A DNA stretch of 64,000 nucleotides, from positions 124,001 through 188,000 of the forward strand of contig NZ_CP048433.1 of assembly GCF_010509075.1 (NCBI RefSeq). Reading direction: 5' to 3'. The position numbers and the translations under genes were made by a program. The notes under the pieces are model-generated. The model was not told the origin of the DNA and searched no databases. It worked only from the letters and a program-made list of their open reading frames with translations. This stretch comes from Collinsella aerofaciens ATCC 25986. GTDB lineage: Bacteria; Actinomycetota; Coriobacteriia; Coriobacteriales; Coriobacteriaceae. Of this stretch, positions 34,967-62,651 are shown piece by piece; position 1 is the first letter of the stretch; each line of letters begins with the position of its first letter.

Positions 34967-36646
34967 ATGGCGGAGTTCATCTACCAGATGTATCAGGCTC
35001 GCAAGGCCCATGGCGACAAGGTAATCCTTGACGACGTGACCCTGAGCTTCTACCCCGGTGCCAAGATCGGCGTCGTGGGCCCCAACGGTATGGGCAAGTC
35101 GACCCTGCTCAAGATCATGGCCGGCATCGAGGAGGTCTCCAACGGCGATGCCAGGCTCACCCCCGGCTACACCGTGGGTATCCTGCAGCAGGAGCCGCCG
35201 CTCGATGACGACAAGACCGTCATCGAGAACGTGCGCATGGCATTTGGCGACATGATCGCCAAGGTCGATCGCTTCAATAAGATCGGCGAGGAGATGTGCG
35301 ACCCGGATTGCGACATGGACGCCCTCATGGCCGAGATGGGCAAGCTCCAGGACGAGATCGACGCCGCCGACGGCTGGGATATCGATTCCAAGCTCGGCCA
35401 GGCCATGGACGCCCTGCAGCTGCCCGATTCTGACATGCCGGTTAATGTGCTTTCCGGCGGCGAGCGCCGTCGCGTGGCCCTGCGCAAGCTGCTGCTCGAG
35501 GCTCCCGACCTGCTGCTGCTCGACGAGCCCACGAACCACCTGGACGCCGAGTCGATCCTGTGGCTCGAGCATTTCCTGCACAACTACCAGGGCGCCGTTC
35601 TGGCTGTCACGCACGATCGCTACTTCCTGGATAACGTTGCCGAGTGGATCTGCGAGGTCGACCGCGGTCACCTCTATCCCTACAAGGGCAACTACTCCAC
35701 GTATCTGGAGACCAAGGCTGCGCGTATCGAGGCACAGGGCAACCGCGATGCCAAGCTCGCCAAGCGCATGGAGGCCGAGCTCGAGTGGGTACGCAGCTCG
35801 CCCAAGGCTCGCCAGGCCAAGAACAAGGCCCGTCTGGCTCGCTACGAGGAGATGGAGGCCGAGGCCCGCGCAAGCCAGAAGCTCGACTGGACCGACATTC
35901 GCATTCCTGTGGGCCCGCGTTTGGGCAACAAGGTGCTCGAGGCCCATCACCTGCACAAAGAGTTCGATGGCCGCGTGCTTATCGACGACCTTTCGTTCAC
36001 CCTGCCGCGCAACGGCATCGTGGGCGTCATCGGCCCCAACGGCGTCGGTAAGACCACGCTGTTCAAGACGATTGTGGGTCTGGAGCCGCTGACTTCGGGC
36101 GAGCTCGAGGTGGGCGAGACCGTCAAGATTTCTTACGTCGACCAGAACCGTTCCGGCATCGACCCCGATAAGAACCTGTGGGAGGTCGTCTCGGATGGCC
36201 TGGACCACATGATGGTCGGCGAGACTGAGGTTCCGAGCCGCGCTTATGTGGCGAGCTTTGGCTTTAAGGGCCAGGACCAGCAGAAGCGCGCTGGCGTACT
36301 ATCCGGTGGCGAGCGCAACCGTCTGAACTTGGCACTCACGCTCAAGCAGGGCGGCAACCTGCTGCTCCTCGACGAGCCCACGAACGACCTCGACGTCGAG
36401 ACGCTGTCCTCGCTCGAAGCGGCGCTGCTCGAGTTCCCGGGCTGCTCGGTGGTCATTAGCCACGACCGTATGTTCCTGGACCGCGTCGCCACGCACATTC
36501 TGGCGTGGGAGGGCACCGACGAGAATCCGGGCAACTGGTATTGGTTCGAGGGCAACTTCGAGGCCTATCAGGCCAACCGCATCGAGCGCCTGGGCGAGGA
36601 TGCAGCCCAGCCGCATCGTATTCACCGTAAGCTGACGCGCGACTAG
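34967..36646 (+). CDS. ettA: Energy-dependent translational throttle protein EttA (ABC-F)
   Basis: This is a soluble ABC-F ATPase that binds the ribosomal E site and gates elongation according to ATP level. The 559 residues hold two ABC domains: Walker A VGPNGMGKST and GPNGVGKTT, signatures LSGGERRRVALRKLLL and LSGGERNRLNLALTL, and Walker B motifs LLLLDEPTNHLD and LLLLDEPTNDLD. The linker between them carries the helical P-site tRNA interaction motif (KARQAKNKARLARYEEM). Length and linker match EttA rather than Uup or antibiotic-resistance ABC-F proteins. A structured 3' element follows directly. Confidence 0.92.
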   Translation: MAEFIYQMYQARKAHGDKVILDDVTLSFYPGAKIGVVGPNGMGKSTLLKIMAGIEEVSNGDARLTPGYTVGILQQEPPLDDDKTVIENVRMAFGDMIAKVDRFNKIGEEMCDPDCDMDALMAEMGKLQDEIDAADGWDIDSKLGQAMDALQLPDSDMPVNVLSGGERRRVALRKLLLEAPDLLLLDEPTNHLDAESILWLEHFLHNYQGAVLAVTHDRYFLDNVAEWICEVDRGHLYPYKGNYSTYLETKAARIEAQGNRDAKLAKRMEAELEWVRSSPKARQAKNKARLARYEEMEAEARASQKLDWTDIRIPVGPRLGNKVLEAHHLHKEFDGRVLIDDLSFTLPRNGIVGVIGPNGVGKTTLFKTIVGLEPLTSGELEVGETVKISYVDQNRSGIDPDKNLWEVVSDGLDHMMVGETEVPSRAYVASFGFKGQDQQKRAGVLSGGERNRLNLALTLKQGGNLLLLDEPTNDLDVETLSSLEAALLEFPGCSVVISHDRMFLDRVATHILAWEGTDENPGNWYWFEGNFEAYQANRIERLGEDAAQPHRIHRKLTRD

Positions 36647-36649
36647 ATC

Positions 36650-36676
36650 GTTACGCGGTTTTCCAAACCGCGTAAC
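36650..36676 (+). repeat. 3'-end hairpin after ettA
   Basis: GTTACGCGGTTT and AAACCGCGTAAC form a perfect 12-bp stem with loop TCC, starting 4 bp after the ettA stop. A very similar hairpin follows dapH at 46491-46518. Confidence 0.75.
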
Positions 36677-36690
36677 TGCTCGACGCTGCG

Positions 36691-36788
36691 CGGGTCGCAA
36701 GCACCCCATCTTGCCGTTCAAGCCGTCGCTCGCGTACCGAAGTACGCGTCGCTCCTCTTTCACGGCAACCTGGGGCACTTGCGGCCCG
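36691..36788 (+). repeat. Structured 3'-end element, copy A
   Basis: Outer arms CGGGTCGCAAGCACCCCA and TGGGGCACTTGCGGCCCG, middle stem TTGCCGT/ACGGCAA, inner hairpin CGCGTAC-CGAA-GTACGCG. Conserved unpaired segments are TTCAAGCCGTCG and GCTCCTCTTTC. It matches copy B at 62549 (reverse orientation) almost throughout and copy C at 46380 in the conserved segments. Confidence 0.75.
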
Positions 36789-46326: not shown

Positions 46327-46379
46327 TGTTTTCGGCTTGGTTGCTGACATTGCGCCGCAGGTTGAGCACACGTCAGCGA

Positions 46380-46477
46380 AAACGCCCCTAGGCGAGCAAG
46401 GTGACGCGAAAGAGGAGGGCATTGACCTTCTGGTTATGCCCGACGATTGAACGTCAGATTGCCGCCTAGGGGCGTTT
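46380..46477 (-). repeat. Structured 3'-end element, copy C
   Basis: Outer arms AAACGCCCCTAGGCG and CGCCTAGGGGCGTTT (15-bp perfect), middle stem TGACG/CGTCA, inner GGGCAT/ATGCCC. Read on the minus strand it shares CGTTCAATCGTCG and CTCCTCTTTC with copies A and B although the stem sequences differ. Confidence 0.7.
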
Positions 46478-46490
46478 GCAGCGTCGGGTC

Positions 46491-46518
46491 GTTACGGCGT
46501 TTGGTAAAACGCCGTAAC
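46491..46518 (-). repeat. 3'-end hairpin after dapH
   Basis: GTTACGGCGTTT and AAACGCCGTAAC form a 12-bp stem, 2 bp after the dapH stop and 13 bp before element C. The geometry matches ettA and element A. Confidence 0.75.
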
Positions 46519-46520
46519 TA

Positions 46521-47240
46521 TTAAAGCTGGCGCAGGCCCTCTTCCAGGCCGGTCTTGCTGTCGGTCTTCTCGTCGCGCATCTTGATGGCGCGGGCGGGGA
46601 CACCGGCCACGACGGCGCCGGCGGGGACGTCCTCGACGCACACGGCGCCGGCGGCAACTACAGCACCCTTGCCCACGTGCACGCCTTCCAGGACCACGGC
46701 GTTTGCGCCGATCATGACATCGTCCTCGATGATGACGGGCGTGGCGCTGGCGGGCTCCACAACGCCTGCCAGCACGGTGCCGGCGCCGATGTGGCAGTTC
46801 TTGCCCACGGTGGCGCGACCGCCCAGCACGGCGCCCATATCGATCATGGAACCCTCGCCGATAACGGAGCCGATGTTGATGATGGCGCCCATCATGATGA
46901 CGGCACGGTCGCCAATCTCGACGCGGTCGCGGATGATCGCGCCCGGCTCGATGCGGGCGTTGATGCCCTTAAGGTCGAGCATGGGCACGGCGGAGTTGCG
47001 GCAATCGTTTTCAACGTCGTAGTAATCGATGGAATCGGCATTGGCGTCCAGGATGGTCTTGAGCTCGTCCCAGTCGCCAAAGACGGTCTTGCCGCGACGG
47101 CCGCCGTAGACATGTGCGTCGCCCCAGGCAACCTTCATGCCCGGCTTCTCGCGCACGTACAGCTTGACGGGCGTCTTTTTGGGCGCGGTGGCGATGTAGT
47201 TGATAATCTCCTGTGCATCCATCTCGGCTGCGTTGCTCAT
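46521..47240 (-). CDS. dapH: Tetrahydrodipicolinate N-acetyltransferase
   Basis: This enzyme acetylates tetrahydrodipicolinate in the acetylase branch of the diaminopimelate/lysine pathway. The 239-residue protein has the short N-terminal DapH domain ([22 protein letters not shown]), then a left-handed beta-helix of hexapeptide repeats ([51 protein letters not shown]) and the acyl-CoA end [18 protein letters not shown]. Length and N terminus fit Bacillus DapH, not the longer succinyl-type DapD. It is the last gene of the riboswitch-controlled operon, 39 bp after dapB, with GGAGAG before its ATG. Confidence 0.92.
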
Positions 47241-47279: not shown

Positions 47280-48020
47280 TTAGGCAAACATGACCTTGTC
47301 GAACGTATAGAAGCCGGGTTCGCGGGTGACGAGCTTCTGCGCGGCTGCCAAGGCGCCGTTGACAAAGATCTGACGGCTCGTGGCGCGGTGGGTGAGCGTG
47401 ACCTCCTCGTCCTGGCCAAAGAAGCTCACCTCGTGCACGCCGGCGACGGTGCCGCCGCGCAGCGAGTGCATACCGATTTCCTTGGGATCGCGTGCTCCGC
47501 ACATGCCCTCGCGGCCATAGACGGGGTGGTAGCCTGCCTCGGGCTCGGCTTCGACGACGGCGTCGAGCAGTAGCTTGGCAGTGCCGCTGGGGGCGTCGAC
47601 CTTTTGGTTGTGGTGCGTCTCGACGATTTCGCAGTCAAAGCCGGGCAGCTCGCGTGTAGCCTGCGCTACCAGATGGCGCAGGGCTGCGATACCGATGGAG
47701 TAATTGCCCGAGTGCATAACGCGGGTGTTCTGGCCCAGCTCACGCAGGCGGTCCATCTGCTCGGGGGTGTAGCCTGTGGTGCCTGAGACCAACGCCGCGC
47801 CCGTGCGCTCGACATAGGCGACGACGGCGTCGAAGGTCGCGACGTTCGAGAAGTCGATGATGACGTCGGCAGCCGGTGCGTTCTCGAGCTCGCTCAAATC
47901 GAAGCCAATCTGGGCCACGATATCAAAAACGGGCTGCCCGGCGGCGTCGACAATGCCTTCGGCGGTAGTGCGGATGAGCGAGCCCATGCGGCCCGTTCCC
48001 ATAATGACGGTCTTAATCAA
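47280..48020 (-). CDS. dapB: 4-hydroxy-tetrahydrodipicolinate reductase
   Basis: This NAD(P)H-dependent reductase is the second dap-specific step of lysine biosynthesis. The 246-residue protein has the nucleotide loop MGTGRMGSLI, VIIDFSNVATFDAVV, SGTTGYTPEQ, and the catalytic block CEIVETHHNQKVDAPSGTAKLL with the conserved HH and Lys. It starts at TTG48020 within the dapA stop region (8-nt overlap), with GGGAG upstream, so translation is coupled to the preceding fusion gene. Confidence 0.93.
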   Translation of the reverse strand: MIKTVIMGTGRMGSLIRTTAEGIVDAAGQPVFDIVAQIGFDLSELENAPAADVIIDFSNVATFDAVVAYVERTGAALVSGTTGYTPEQMDRLRELGQNTRVMHSGNYSIGIAALRHLVAQATRELPGFDCEIVETHHNQKVDAPSGTAKLLLDAVVEAEPEAGYHPVYGREGMCGARDPKEIGMHSLRGGTVAGVHEVSFFGQDEEVTLTHRATSRQIFVNGALAAAQKLVTREPGFYTFDKVMFA

Positions 48021-50322
48021 GTAGACCAGCTCCCTTCAGAGCATCGGTAAGTGCGGCTCGCGTGTCGTCTGCCATGGGGCACAGCGGCATACGGTAGTTT
48101 GCCTCGATCATGCCCATCTGGGCGAGCGCTTCCTTGACGGGGATGGGGTTGACCTCGCTAAAGAGGGCGTTGATGAGCGGCTGGCCGGCAATCTGGATAT
48201 CGCGGGCGCGCGCTACGTCGCCGTCCAGATAAGCGCGGCACATGTCGTGTACAAGCTGCGGCTGCACGTCGGCCCACACGCTGATGGTGCCCGAAGCGCC
48301 CAGGCTCATGAGCGGCACTGTGAGTGCATCCTCGCCCGAGTACATGCGGAAATCGTCGGACAGCAGGTGGGCGATCTTGGCCGCGTAGGCGACGTTGCCC
48401 GAGGCCTCCTTGATGCCCATGATGTTGGGGTGCGCGGCTAGGCGCTCTACGTTGCGCTCGCTGATACCGCAGCCGCAGCGGCCGGGGATGTTGTACAGGA
48501 TGCAGGGGATGTCAACGGCATCGGCGACGGTCTTAAAGTGCTGATAGATACCCTCTTCGTTGGACTTGTTGTAGTAGGGGGTAATGAGCAGCAGGCCGTC
48601 GGCTCCCAAGCCCTGGTAAGTAAGCGACTTGGTGAGCATGGTCTGCGTGGAGTTGGAGCCTGAGCCGGCGATGACGGGGACGCGTCCTGCAACATGCTTG
48701 ACCACGGCGGCGACGACGGAGTTGTCCTCGTCATCGGTCATCGTGGCGCTCTCGCCGGTGGTGCCCAGGGTGAGAATGGCGTCGGTGCCATTTTGCAAGT
48801 GGAAATCGATAAGGCGCTCGAGCGCGTCAAAGTCGACACTGCCGTCCTTTTTAAACGGCGTAACCAGGGCGACGATTGAGCCCTCGAGATTGCGGATGTC
48901 CATGTTCTTCTCCTTCGCCTCCGCGATCTGGATGCGTTTGTTCCATTGAGCTGCGACTGCCAGGCGCTCGTCTTGGGCGCGACGGCGGGCGCTTTCGGCG
49001 CGCGACTTGGCCAGCAGCTCTCGGCCGCACGGCAGCACGTCGAGCGTGGAAAAGTAATCGCCCGGGCGCTCGGCGCGGCGGATGAGGTCGGCCGCGCCAT
49101 CGGGGCGCAGCAGGACCTCGGCGGAGCGCAGACGTCCGTTGTAGTTGTAGCCCATGGAGTAGCCATGCGCACCGGTATCGTGGATTACAAGCAGGTCACC
49201 CATGTCGATATGCGGCAGCTCGCGGTCGATGGCGAACTTGTCGTTGTTTTCGCACAGGTTGCCCGTGATATCGTACGTGTTCGTGACGGGAGCTGCGGAC
49301 TTGTCGGGGCCACCCGGCTGGCCCATCACTGTAACGTGGTGGTAAGCGCCATACATGGCAGGACGAATGAGGTCGACGGCACTTGCGTCCACGCCGATAT
49401 AGTCTTTGTAGATCCGCTTTTCGTGAATGGCCTTGGTGACCAGGCACCCGTAGGGGCCCATCATAAAGCGGCCCATCTCGGTGCAGATCGCCACATCGCC
49501 CATGCCGGCGGGAACCAGGATCTCGTCGTAGGCCGCGTGTACACCCTCGCCGATGGCGTGGATGTCATTGGCCTGCTGCTCGGGCAGGTAGGGGATACCC
49601 ACACCGCCGGACAGATTGATAAAGGCGACATGTGCACCGGTCTCGCGCTCCAGGCGCACGGCAAGTTCAAAGAGGATTCGCGCGAGCTTGGGGTAGTAAT
49701 CGTTGGTGACGGTGTTGCTGGCAAGGAAGGCATGGATGCCAAAGTCCTCGGCGCCCTTGGCCTTGAGCATGCGGAAGGCATCAAAGAGCTGCTCGGTGGT
49801 CATGCCGTACTTGGAATCGCCCGGGTTGTCCATAATGCCGTTGGAAAGCTGGAACAGGCCGCCCGGGTTAAAACGGCAGCTCACCGTCTTGGGGATGGGT
49901 CCCGCGACGCGCTCGTAAAACTCAATGTGGCTGATATCGTCGAAGTTGACGATGGCGCCCAACTTGTCGGCAAGCTCAAAGTCTGCCGCCGGCGTGTCGT
50001 TGGACGAGAACATGATGTCATGGCCGGTGATGCCCAGCGAGCGGGCGATCATGAGCTCGGTATAGCTCGAGCAATCGCAGCCGCAGCCGTATTCGTTGAG
50101 AATTGAGATAAGGGCCGGGTTGGGGTTGGCCTTGACGGCAAAGTACTCCTTAAACCCCGGGTTCCACGCAAAGGCGTCGCGCACTTCTTGCATGTTGCGG
50201 CGGATACCCGCCTCGTCGTATAGATGAAACGGCGTGGGGAACTGCTCGACGATATGCTCGAGTGTCTCCTTGTCCACAAACGGCTGCTTGGCCGCATATG
50301 CCTCGTTGGGGGTCAATGCCAT
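48013..50322 (-). CDS. lysA-dapA: LysA-DapA fusion: diaminopimelate decarboxylase plus 4-hydroxy-tetrahydrodipicolinate synthase
   Basis: A single 769-codon frame joins two lysine-pathway enzymes. The LysA-like PLP barrel (about 1-425) has EYFAVKANPNPAL (PLP lysine), CDCSSYTELMIA, INLSGGVGIPYL, CTEMGRFMMGPYG and GNLCENNDKFAIDRELP with the active-site Cys; YSMGYNYNGRLRSAEV closes it. After a charged linker (about 430-473), DapA starts at Met474: IVALVTPFKKDGSVDFDAL, LGTTGESATM, YYNKSNEEGIYQHF, YNIPGRCG and Schiff-base Lys in GIKEASGN. AAGGAG lies 7 nt before that internal ATG (48903), so free DapA of 296 residues may also be made. First gene behind the lysine riboswitch. Confidence 0.88.
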   Translation of the reverse strand: MALTPNEAYAAKQPFVDKETLEHIVEQFPTPFHLYDEAGIRRNMQEVRDAFAWNPGFKEYFAVKANPNPALISILNEYGCGCDCSSYTELMIARSLGITGHDIMFSSNDTPAADFELADKLGAIVNFDDISHIEFYERVAGPIPKTVSCRFNPGGLFQLSNGIMDNPGDSKYGMTTEQLFDAFRMLKAKGAEDFGIHAFLASNTVTNDYYPKLARILFELAVRLERETGAHVAFINLSGGVGIPYLPEQQANDIHAIGEGVHAAYDEILVPAGMGDVAICTEMGRFMMGPYGCLVTKAIHEKRIYKDYIGVDASAVDLIRPAMYGAYHHVTVMGQPGGPDKSAAPVTNTYDITGNLCENNDKFAIDRELPHIDMGDLLVIHDTGAHGYSMGYNYNGRLRSAEVLLRPDGAADLIRRAERPGDYFSTLDVLPCGRELLAKSRAESARRRAQDERLAVAAQWNKRIQIAEAKEKNMDIRNLEGSIVALVTPFKKDGSVDFDALERLIDFHLQNGTDAILTLGTTGESATMTDDEDNSVVAAVVKHVAGRVPVIAGSGSNSTQTMLTKSLTYQGLGADGLLLITPYYNKSNEEGIYQHFKTVADAVDIPCILYNIPGRCGCGISERNVERLAAHPNIMGIKEASGNVAYAAKIAHLLSDDFRMYSGEDALTVPLMSLGASGTISVWADVQPQLVHDMCRAYLDGDVARARDIQIAGQPLINALFSEVNPIPVKEALAQMGMIEANYRMPLCPMADDTRAALTDALKGAGLLD
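48910..48915 (-). promoter_or_regulatory. Internal Shine-Dalgarno before the DapA part
   Basis: AAGGAG on the minus strand, 7 nt upstream of ATG48903, inside the linker of the fusion gene. It could allow independent DapA translation. Confidence 0.6.
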
Positions 50323-50393
50323 GTCCCGTAAACCTCGCTATCCAGACGGCGCCATCTGCGCATCGAATCCGCATAGCGTGGACCCAATGTCCG

Positions 50394-50550
50394 GATAGCG
50401 CTCCCGCATTGCTGCAGACAGTCCTGTGGGTGTTTCCCACAGGCCCACCAGGTTGTTCGTGCCCGAAAAACCCAGTTCGGCGGGTTTCGCCTCCCCACGG
50501 GGTCAAAGCCTGCCGGCTCGCCCGCGGCTCTTCGTGCCCGCGCCTCTATC
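50394..50550 (-). ncRNA. Lysine riboswitch (L box)
   Basis: Read on the minus strand, P1 is GATAGAGGCGC with GCGCTATC at the end. Between them are the L-box landmarks GAGGCGCGGGCACGAAGAG, GGGGAGGCGAAACCCGCCGAA and GGACTGTCTGCAGCAATGCG. The RNA sits directly before the lysA-dapA-dapB-dapH operon. The P1 3' strand (CGCTATCC) has an 8-nt complement GGATAGCG at 50343-50336 just upstream of the lysA start, suggesting translational control; no terminator follows. Confidence 0.88.
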
Positions 50551-50578
50551 AAGTGGTAAAGACCCTATCACGTTGCAC

Positions 50579-62461: not shown

Positions 62462-62505
62462 TTGGGGACGTTCTTTAATGACTAGTCGTTTAAGAACGTC
62501 CCCAA
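62462..62505. repeat. Palindromic hairpin between S component and ecfA
   Basis: TTGGGGACGTTCTT (62462-62475) and AAGAACGTCCCCAA (62492-62505) form a perfect 14-bp stem; GACTAGTCGTTT in the loop recurs as GCTAGTCGTTT after it. GGGGAC ends recall the REP-like repeats. Confidence 0.7.
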
Positions 62506-62548: not shown

Positions 62549-62651
62549 CGGCTTTACGAGGGGCCCCAGGTTGGCGCAAGAAAGAGGAGCGAAGCGTACT
62601 TGGGTACGCGAGCGACGAATGAACGCCAAGATGGGGTGGCTCGTAAAGCCG
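62549..62651 (-). repeat. Structured 3'-end element, copy B
   Basis: Outer arms CGGCTTTACGAG (62549-62560) and CTCGTAAAGCCG (62640-62651), inner GCGTAC/GTACGC, middle TTGGCG/CGCCAA. On the minus strand it nearly equals copy A in the core but has different outer arms. It starts 6 bp after the S-component stop. Confidence 0.75.

Follow-up and report, generated by a model that had tools for sequence, protein, structure and literature searches.

The palindromes that follow stop codons in Collinsella aerofaciens ATCC 25986 are probably copies of a non-autonomous mobile repeat, REP/ERIC-like in kind, which would fold as single-stranded DNA for a putative enzyme acting in trans. In this gut-bacterial genus the repeat reaches up to 48 copies per genome behind core genes (pheS, gyrB, dapH) and lies outside any Rfam family: it falls below the gathering score of every family, the permissive matches being sub-threshold and mostly to miRNA-type hairpins. 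A first-pass annotation of this DNA had proposed that structure is under selection, whether at the level of RNA or in a mobile DNA hairpin. The data support such selection, and presence or absence among close relatives, tandem copies and lineage-specific copy numbers together favour the mobile-DNA branch.

The window is the whole 64,000-nucleotide stretch analysed. Re-reading of the sequence finds all three elements that had been annotated in it, A, B and C, in their places. Their parts are:

36650..36676, plus strand: small 5' hairpin of Element A (GTTACGCGG..CCGCGTAAC), read from the sequence, 3 nt past the ettA stop
36691..36788, plus strand: large hairpin of Element A, as first delimited; folding z -6.5
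36694..36784, minus strand: conserved core of Element A on the structured (complement) strand; covariance model, 78.6 bits, E 1.2e-22
46380..46477, minus strand: large hairpin of Element C in gene-sense orientation; folding z -6.8
46385..46474, plus strand: core of Element C on the structured strand; covariance model, 97.3 bits, E 1.2e-28
46491..46518, minus strand: small hairpin of Element C (GTTACGGCG..CGCCGTAAC), directly past the dapH stop; copy L020
62549..62651, minus strand: large hairpin of Element B, of the second type, without a small hairpin; folding z -7.4
62555..62646, plus strand: core of Element B on the structured strand; covariance model, 74.0 bits, E 3.3e-21

The outer, middle and inner stems of the three elements are complementary, as the annotation had described them. 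Its extents hold for the large hairpins; A and C additionally carry a small hairpin of their own at the stop codon (ettA, 36644-36646; dapH, 46521-46523, minus strand), forming a two-hairpin unit. Element B is flanked by two genes of one strand. Family searches bear out two of the gene names, EttA and a DapH-type N-acetyltransferase. The third, an ECF S component, is weak, its protein giving only a sub-threshold TrpP match (23.8 bits against a cut-off of 27.2); its gene adjoins that of a two-domain ABC ATPase.

Folding energies of A, B and C lie 6.5 to 7.7 SD under those of dinucleotide shuffles and are equalled by 0 of 200 shuffles. An unfiltered covariance-model search of the window returns E < 1e-20 for these three and nothing else, followed by six weaker matches (E 0.0035-0.98), two of which mirror A and C on the opposite strand. 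Exact matches to the motif pair TTCANNCGTCG..CTCCTCTTTC number two in the window against 0.00 expected, the exact pattern missing Element A by one additional base there, and 11 matches in the genome against 0 for a reversed control pattern.

Further copies in related genomes, which the annotation had named as a check, are plentiful. With a covariance model built on 12 own-genome copies (R1), the genome itself yields 45 copies with E < 1e-9 and three weaker matches (E 0.098-0.17); matches occur in 32 of the 35 genomes of the genus, this one included, and in 5 of 23 other genomes of the order. Copy numbers across the 35 genus genomes are uneven: 0 in 3, 1-4 in 6 and 34-48 in 16. The three genomes with 0 R1 matches are G001, G014 and G025, and a second model gives weak matches in G001 (E 0.024) and G014 (E 0.0025). 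A species-named scan found the element in Collinsella species, Enorma massiliensis and one Atopobiaceae MAG among 80 of at least 120 matches; two of its loci (L254, L266) were confirmed with R1, and the MAG copy is very Collinsella-like (85.8 bits), so that mis-binning is possible. Phage carriage was rejected: of four exact pattern matches in viral contigs, only one reaches E <= 1 with R1 (13.9 bits).

In the commoner type, 27 of the 45 own copies, a small hairpin with a perfect stem of 9 bp or more precedes the large one; in the other 18 the small hairpin is missing or imperfect. In the copies read, the two-hairpin unit starts 0-7 nt past the stop codon. The gene strand carries CGCTG at both feet of the large hairpin (GACGCTGC .. 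TCGCTGAC) in 21 of the 27 two-hairpin own copies, and a genome from another family of the order (G051) has the same two-hairpin plan with a similar CGCTG at the feet. CGCTG may serve as the core at which cleavage or exchange takes place.

It is the strand complementary to the gene strand that adopts the selected fold. With Y denoting the gene-sense strand and R its complement, the R core runs GAAAGAGGAG, inner hairpin, CGACGATTGA, and its arms form a near-continuous helix that combines covarying Watson-Crick stems with three tandem 5'-GA-3'/3'-AG-5' modules, in the order GA/AG, two Watson-Crick pairs, GA/AG, one pair, GA/AG, two pairs, inner stem. In the window, Element A has its G·A halves on the strand opposite 36717-36728 and 36752-36761, as the complements of these two stretches; in Element B the halves are 62580-62589 and 62613-62623 themselves, and in Element C 46408-46417 (GAAAGAGGAG) and 46441-46451 (CGACGATTGAA). 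A small G-rich internal motif lies about 6 bp below the G·A modules, and many copies contain a tandem UG/GU pair, as seen in the second type.

A palindrome conserved as DNA mimics RNA covariation on both strands, which is relevant to annotation; a strand test, setting G·A and G·U against their complements, reveals the strand that folds. Applied to 85 of 94 matches (identical cores, matches below 80 nt and named weak loci being left out), a strand-neutral count gives 443 G·A mismatches on R and 9 on Y, together with 191 and 74 G·U pairs, of which the isolated wobbles number 52 and 29. R is the more stable strand in 81 of the 85 copies, with RNA and equally with DNA parameters, and with RNA parameters the mean difference in stability is about 11 and 13 kcal/mol in two sets. 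The 85 copies also contain 217 mismatches of other kinds (A·A, U·U, G·G, C·C), so the helix is not fully continuous.

Among 70 aligned rows, the module nearest the middle stem has G·A at its two positions in 63 and 65 rows. In the two remaining modules, each of the four positions is G·A in 37-49 rows and Watson-Crick in 16-21, the remainder being mainly G·G (9 rows at one position). All six positions are G·A or Watson-Crick in 58-68 of the 70 rows, and behave as paired helix positions more than as loops. The two motifs that the annotation had taken to be unpaired are in fact pairing partners on the complement strand, joined largely by tandem G·A. Its proposal that CTCCTCTTTC is a free motif complementary to Shine-Dalgarno sequences was rejected: the complement, GAAAGAGGAG, makes tandem G·A pairs with CGACGATTGA, and because CTCCTCTTTC is one side of a helix whose four inner G·A positions are Watson-Crick in 16-21 of 70 rows, mostly so where they are not G·A, a free anti-Shine-Dalgarno role is unsupported.

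The strand asymmetry would also be compatible with an RNA transcribed off the complement strand. Such an RNA, antisense to the upstream gene, would bind a protein through its G·A helix and might itself be copied back into DNA. Tandem G·A, tandem UG/GU and C(UUCG)G-containing loops are typical of RNA, and in an alphaproteobacterium (G173, below) three of six copies lie 9-13 nt upstream of tRNA genes in the same sense. Such a transcript would, however, be antisense to the operon wherever the element stands in a tandem gene pair, and the strand preference is the same with DNA parameters; we consider this reading improbable.

The stems covary strongly. All 26 pairs change on both sides in some rows (mean in shuffles, 20.6), and the covariation score is 0.470 against 0.124 +/- 0.008 for shuffles and at most 0.088 for slid controls. 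The alignment behind these values (A7, 70 rows) is structure-fitted, which favours structure, the shuffles leave relatedness in place, and one wrong-strand row (L266) was kept for both the covariation and the G·A counts. In a sequence-only alignment of 12 copies, RNAalifold finds compensated changes in 12 of 22 pairs. The larger alignment thereby yields the covariation whose absence the annotation had listed as evidence against its proposal. That the elements are ordinary intrinsic terminators or chance look-alike palindromes is scarcely credible, even given their location behind genes and the stability of their hairpins: copy number, E-values (E < 1e-20), covariation and the conserved G·A core refute it, and on reading A and C a T tract is absent after each, separate terminator-like hairpins with T runs lying beyond.

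A simple gene caller based on codon bias places the upstream neighbour on Y for 41 of the 45 own copies, with 25 copies between tandem and 14 between convergent genes. The core starts within about 52 nt of the upstream gene's stop in 35 of the 45; for comparison, 17.5% of the window's intergenic bases lie within 60 nt of a stop. Six of the 41 Y-oriented copies stand 110-1320 nt from the stop by the same caller, and the remaining four of the 45 are inverted with their other end 21-49 nt from the neighbouring gene's stop, so still behind a stop. In other genomes the upstream gene is on Y in 38 of 49 matches. Neighbours identified by family search include pheS/pheT, rplK/rplA, rpoB, rpsG, gyrB and nrdD, several as pieces below the whole-protein cut-off; fusA, gyrA, fabG/fabF, cysS, rplX/rplE and nrdG were recognised by eye. 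Orientation is also regionally biased (10/13, 16/19 and 8/9 loci in three blocks, 41 loci). Replication strand is a doubtful cause of the orientation: GC skew is too faint to identify the leading strand, and B and C are oriented with their own genes, against the trend of their block.

This placement brings in the main rival, a structured RNA within the mRNA: a gene-sense hairpin of 3' untranslated or intercistronic regions that protects 3' ends, tunes translation termination or separates the cistrons of operons. The gene-sense orientation and nearby stops accord with it, as do copies that stand, in one genome or another, behind pheS, gyrB, rplK, rplA, rpsG and nrdD or in front of rpoB, and A and C sit between the stop codon and a terminator-like hairpin. 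Ribosome stalling is reported, in passages of PMC12306157, for REPs no more than 15 nt from a stop codon. The selected non-canonical pairs, G·A and most G·U, are nevertheless on the opposite strand, single sites turn over (ettA, pheS-pheT), and in G173 the upstream gene, taken from plain ORFs, is on the other strand in five of six copies. A DNA-level role fits this reversal better than one fixed mRNA role, and a function in the message is, on balance, unlikely.

Among 23 readable ettA loci (30 loci from 39 genomes, 7 unlocated) the site behind the gene is filled in 9 and unfilled in 14, as judged by reading up to 260 nt past the stop, with one unfilled locus ending at a contig edge. The EttA C-terminus is 100% identical in 9/9 filled and 7/14 unfilled loci. 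Within the genus, the pheS-pheT gap contains the element in 12 of 22 genomes. Outside it the count is 0 of 8, and the gap is 13-40 nt long in the five of these eight where it could be placed. One genome (G034) has two different copies in tandem there, and of three others (G000, G007, G023), whose pheT starts are 98-100% identical, the first has one copy, the second a different copy and the third none. The gap appears to be a hot spot. Its conserved position was rejected as functional proof: since near relatives have none or a different copy, repeated insertion is likelier. Depending on the genome, the gap (L217-L222) holds the element, other palindromic repeats, both or nothing.

At dapH the site is filled in 7/7 genomes examined, this one and six of six relatives, so some copies appear to be retained, perhaps because they serve a function. 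Between close genomes the inner stems and the small hairpin vary there as entire units, and two or more dapH loci have arms of mixed type, which suggests exchange between copies. Aligned pairs of filled and empty sites reveal no clear target-site duplication; the cleanest site (L127/L219) carries other repeats, which blur the junctions. Short, multi-copy, palindromic and, as far as presence and absence in sequence indicate, mobile, the element has the attributes of MITE/ERIC-like repeats.

From strand-specific folding, mobile-repeat behaviour and the opposite gene orientation in G173, we infer a DNA hairpin recognised on one strand. In the mobile-hairpin mechanism favoured here, the complement strand would fold once single-stranded; a putative enzyme acting in trans would recognise the G·A modules and then excise, copy or insert the element. 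Insertions may survive behind stop codons because little else is tolerated there. The gene-sense bias may reflect selection, because an inverted copy would put the more stable hairpin into the mRNA; the surviving orientation would give the message the weaker version. Any influence on mRNA ends, or on how the upstream gene is translated, would be incidental.

Candidate enzymes are the genome's own RAYT / IS200-like transposases, with the repeat as their REP family. PF01797 genes occur in 37 of 58 genomes and are missing from G001 and G025, both R1-negative; RAYTs act on single-stranded hairpins, according to parts of PMC8266576; and the small hairpin is REP-sized, GTAG preceding or overlapping its start in 6 of 27 copies. 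Against this, the element adjoins 0 of 28 PF01797 loci scanned, of roughly 80 places found. Four genomes (G005, G031, G032, G051) have elements and no PF01797 match, G014 has the gene and no R1 match, and the inverted repeat that flanks one RAYT gene (L191) is another one, of 51 nt. Near PF01797 loci there are two weak matches (13.9 and 14.3 bits) and one true element match, about 2.5 kb from the gene in a deliberately longer stretch. As far as tested, the RAYT gene is rejected as the linked enzyme, and movement by it is very improbable. Nor does R1 find a split or long parent copy at E <= 1 among 150 of 1622 candidates scored in the own genome.

Integron attC sites are located behind stop codons and conserve structure over sequence. 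Their folded bottom strand is the preferred one, according to passages of PMC6393395. Predicted stability and mismatch asymmetry suggest that the bottom strand is likewise the folded one here, whereas the element adjoins chromosomal housekeeping genes rather than cassette arrays. ERIC- and MITE-like palindromes share its general form (roughly 100-190 bp, many copies, imperfect palindrome, extragenic); in portions of PMC10969869, 3' untranslated regions are given as the main location of a Coxiella MITE, and Yersinia genes are said to have ERIC at their 3' ends. The present element differs in its one-strand tandem G·A helix and its phylum, and neither a clear MITE-type target duplication nor, in the own genome, a parent insertion sequence was found. 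Sections of PMC3733652 describe REPs as palindromes mostly downstream of coding regions, often as dimers, the CGTC-tagged ones also without a dedicated transposase and defined by an unpaired CGTC at one end, an 8-9 bp stem starting A-T and a short CCA-like tail; 'Actinobacteria' has 0 occurrences in that paper. REPs are 20-40 bp with a terminal unpaired tag, against about 90-100 nt or more for the main hairpin here. The small hairpin is of REP size, as in GTAG-tagged REPs, but has GTAG at or overlapping its start in those six copies only. CGTC lies inside the G·A helix, paired on the complement strand, and the stems differ from those of CGTC-tagged REPs; unlike RAYT-associated REPs, the element stands beside none of the PF01797 genes scanned.

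Collinsella-1 RNA (RF01700), also a structured candidate RNA of this genome, was rejected as its identity, being a single locus elsewhere (C1:980022-980214). A 2010 survey listed 104 candidate RNAs (PMC2864571, in part), and a human-microbiome RNA screen one Collinsella candidate, upstream of L7/L12 (PMC8040213, in part). In the portions of the literature searched, this Collinsella repeat is nowhere described, and the family of mobile DNA hairpins is apparently undescribed so far.

Similar hairpins seem, from sequence comparison, to recur rarely in proteobacteria. Seven of the 80 listed matches, of at least 120, are outside the Coriobacteria, with about 10 chance matches expected in the collection by our own estimate. 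R1 accepts four of the seven (L308, L273, L264, L316) and not L292, L297 or L312, at scores inflated by selection on the exact motif. The accepted hairpins, one in each genome, come from Erythrobacter, from two Novosphingobium and from a MAG of Dechloromonas; all share the core and add a long outer stem to it. Two other, weak matches do not display the three modules, and the second model finds 0 matches in the Dechloromonas genome (G065), although its copy is in the model.

Independent support comes from a single genome of 189 others in a class search that scored 22 candidates per genome: the alphaproteobacterium G173, found without motif preselection. It has six matches to the second model at E <= 0.05, one of them partial, in which the G·A modules are kept and the two-pair spacer changes from AA/UU to AC/GU. 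The three copies upstream of tRNA genes precede tRNA-Gly, tRNA-Trp and tRNA-Ser, with R in the tRNA sense. Several copies (e.g. L390, L391, L386) lie inside an extra copy-specific inverted repeat, e.g. TACCAAA..TTTGGTA, as if inserted into a palindrome loop or extended outward.

Common descent, transfer or convergence may each account for this shared architecture. The one-strand tandem G·A signature, common to the rare proteobacterial hairpins, points to a putative conserved recognition partner. A bolder extension, which we offer as speculative and rather doubtful, is a cross-phylum class of mobile single-stranded DNA hairpins with a triple tandem G·A helix (GA-2bp-GA-1bp-GA) and an unrecognised enzyme, inserting into transcription-exposed DNA behind terminating ribosomes or, in the alphaproteobacterium, beside tRNA genes. 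If true, it would account for both the strand bias and the stop-codon targeting.

Other repeats occur in the same intergenic regions. An inverted pair of TTGGGGACGTTCTTNAANGACTAGTC at window 62462-62505 represents a second repeat family, also present beside other element copies (L005, L008, L009) and resembling the repeat at the RAYT gene in L191. A tail like ACTTATGCTCAACCTGCGG stands behind several copies, e.g. at window 46355-46373 on the minus strand, and behind ettA in G061 (L146), where the element is absent. Gene 3' regions seem to be assembled from several recurring modules. Elsewhere, the window's sole match at the Rfam release 15 gathering level is a lysine riboswitch (50388-50556, minus strand, 79.3 bits). 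Directly downstream of it, a 769-aa ORF (48013-50322, minus strand) matches pyridoxal-dependent decarboxylase domains and, after them, a DHDPS domain, and so appears to be a fusion of LysA with DapA.
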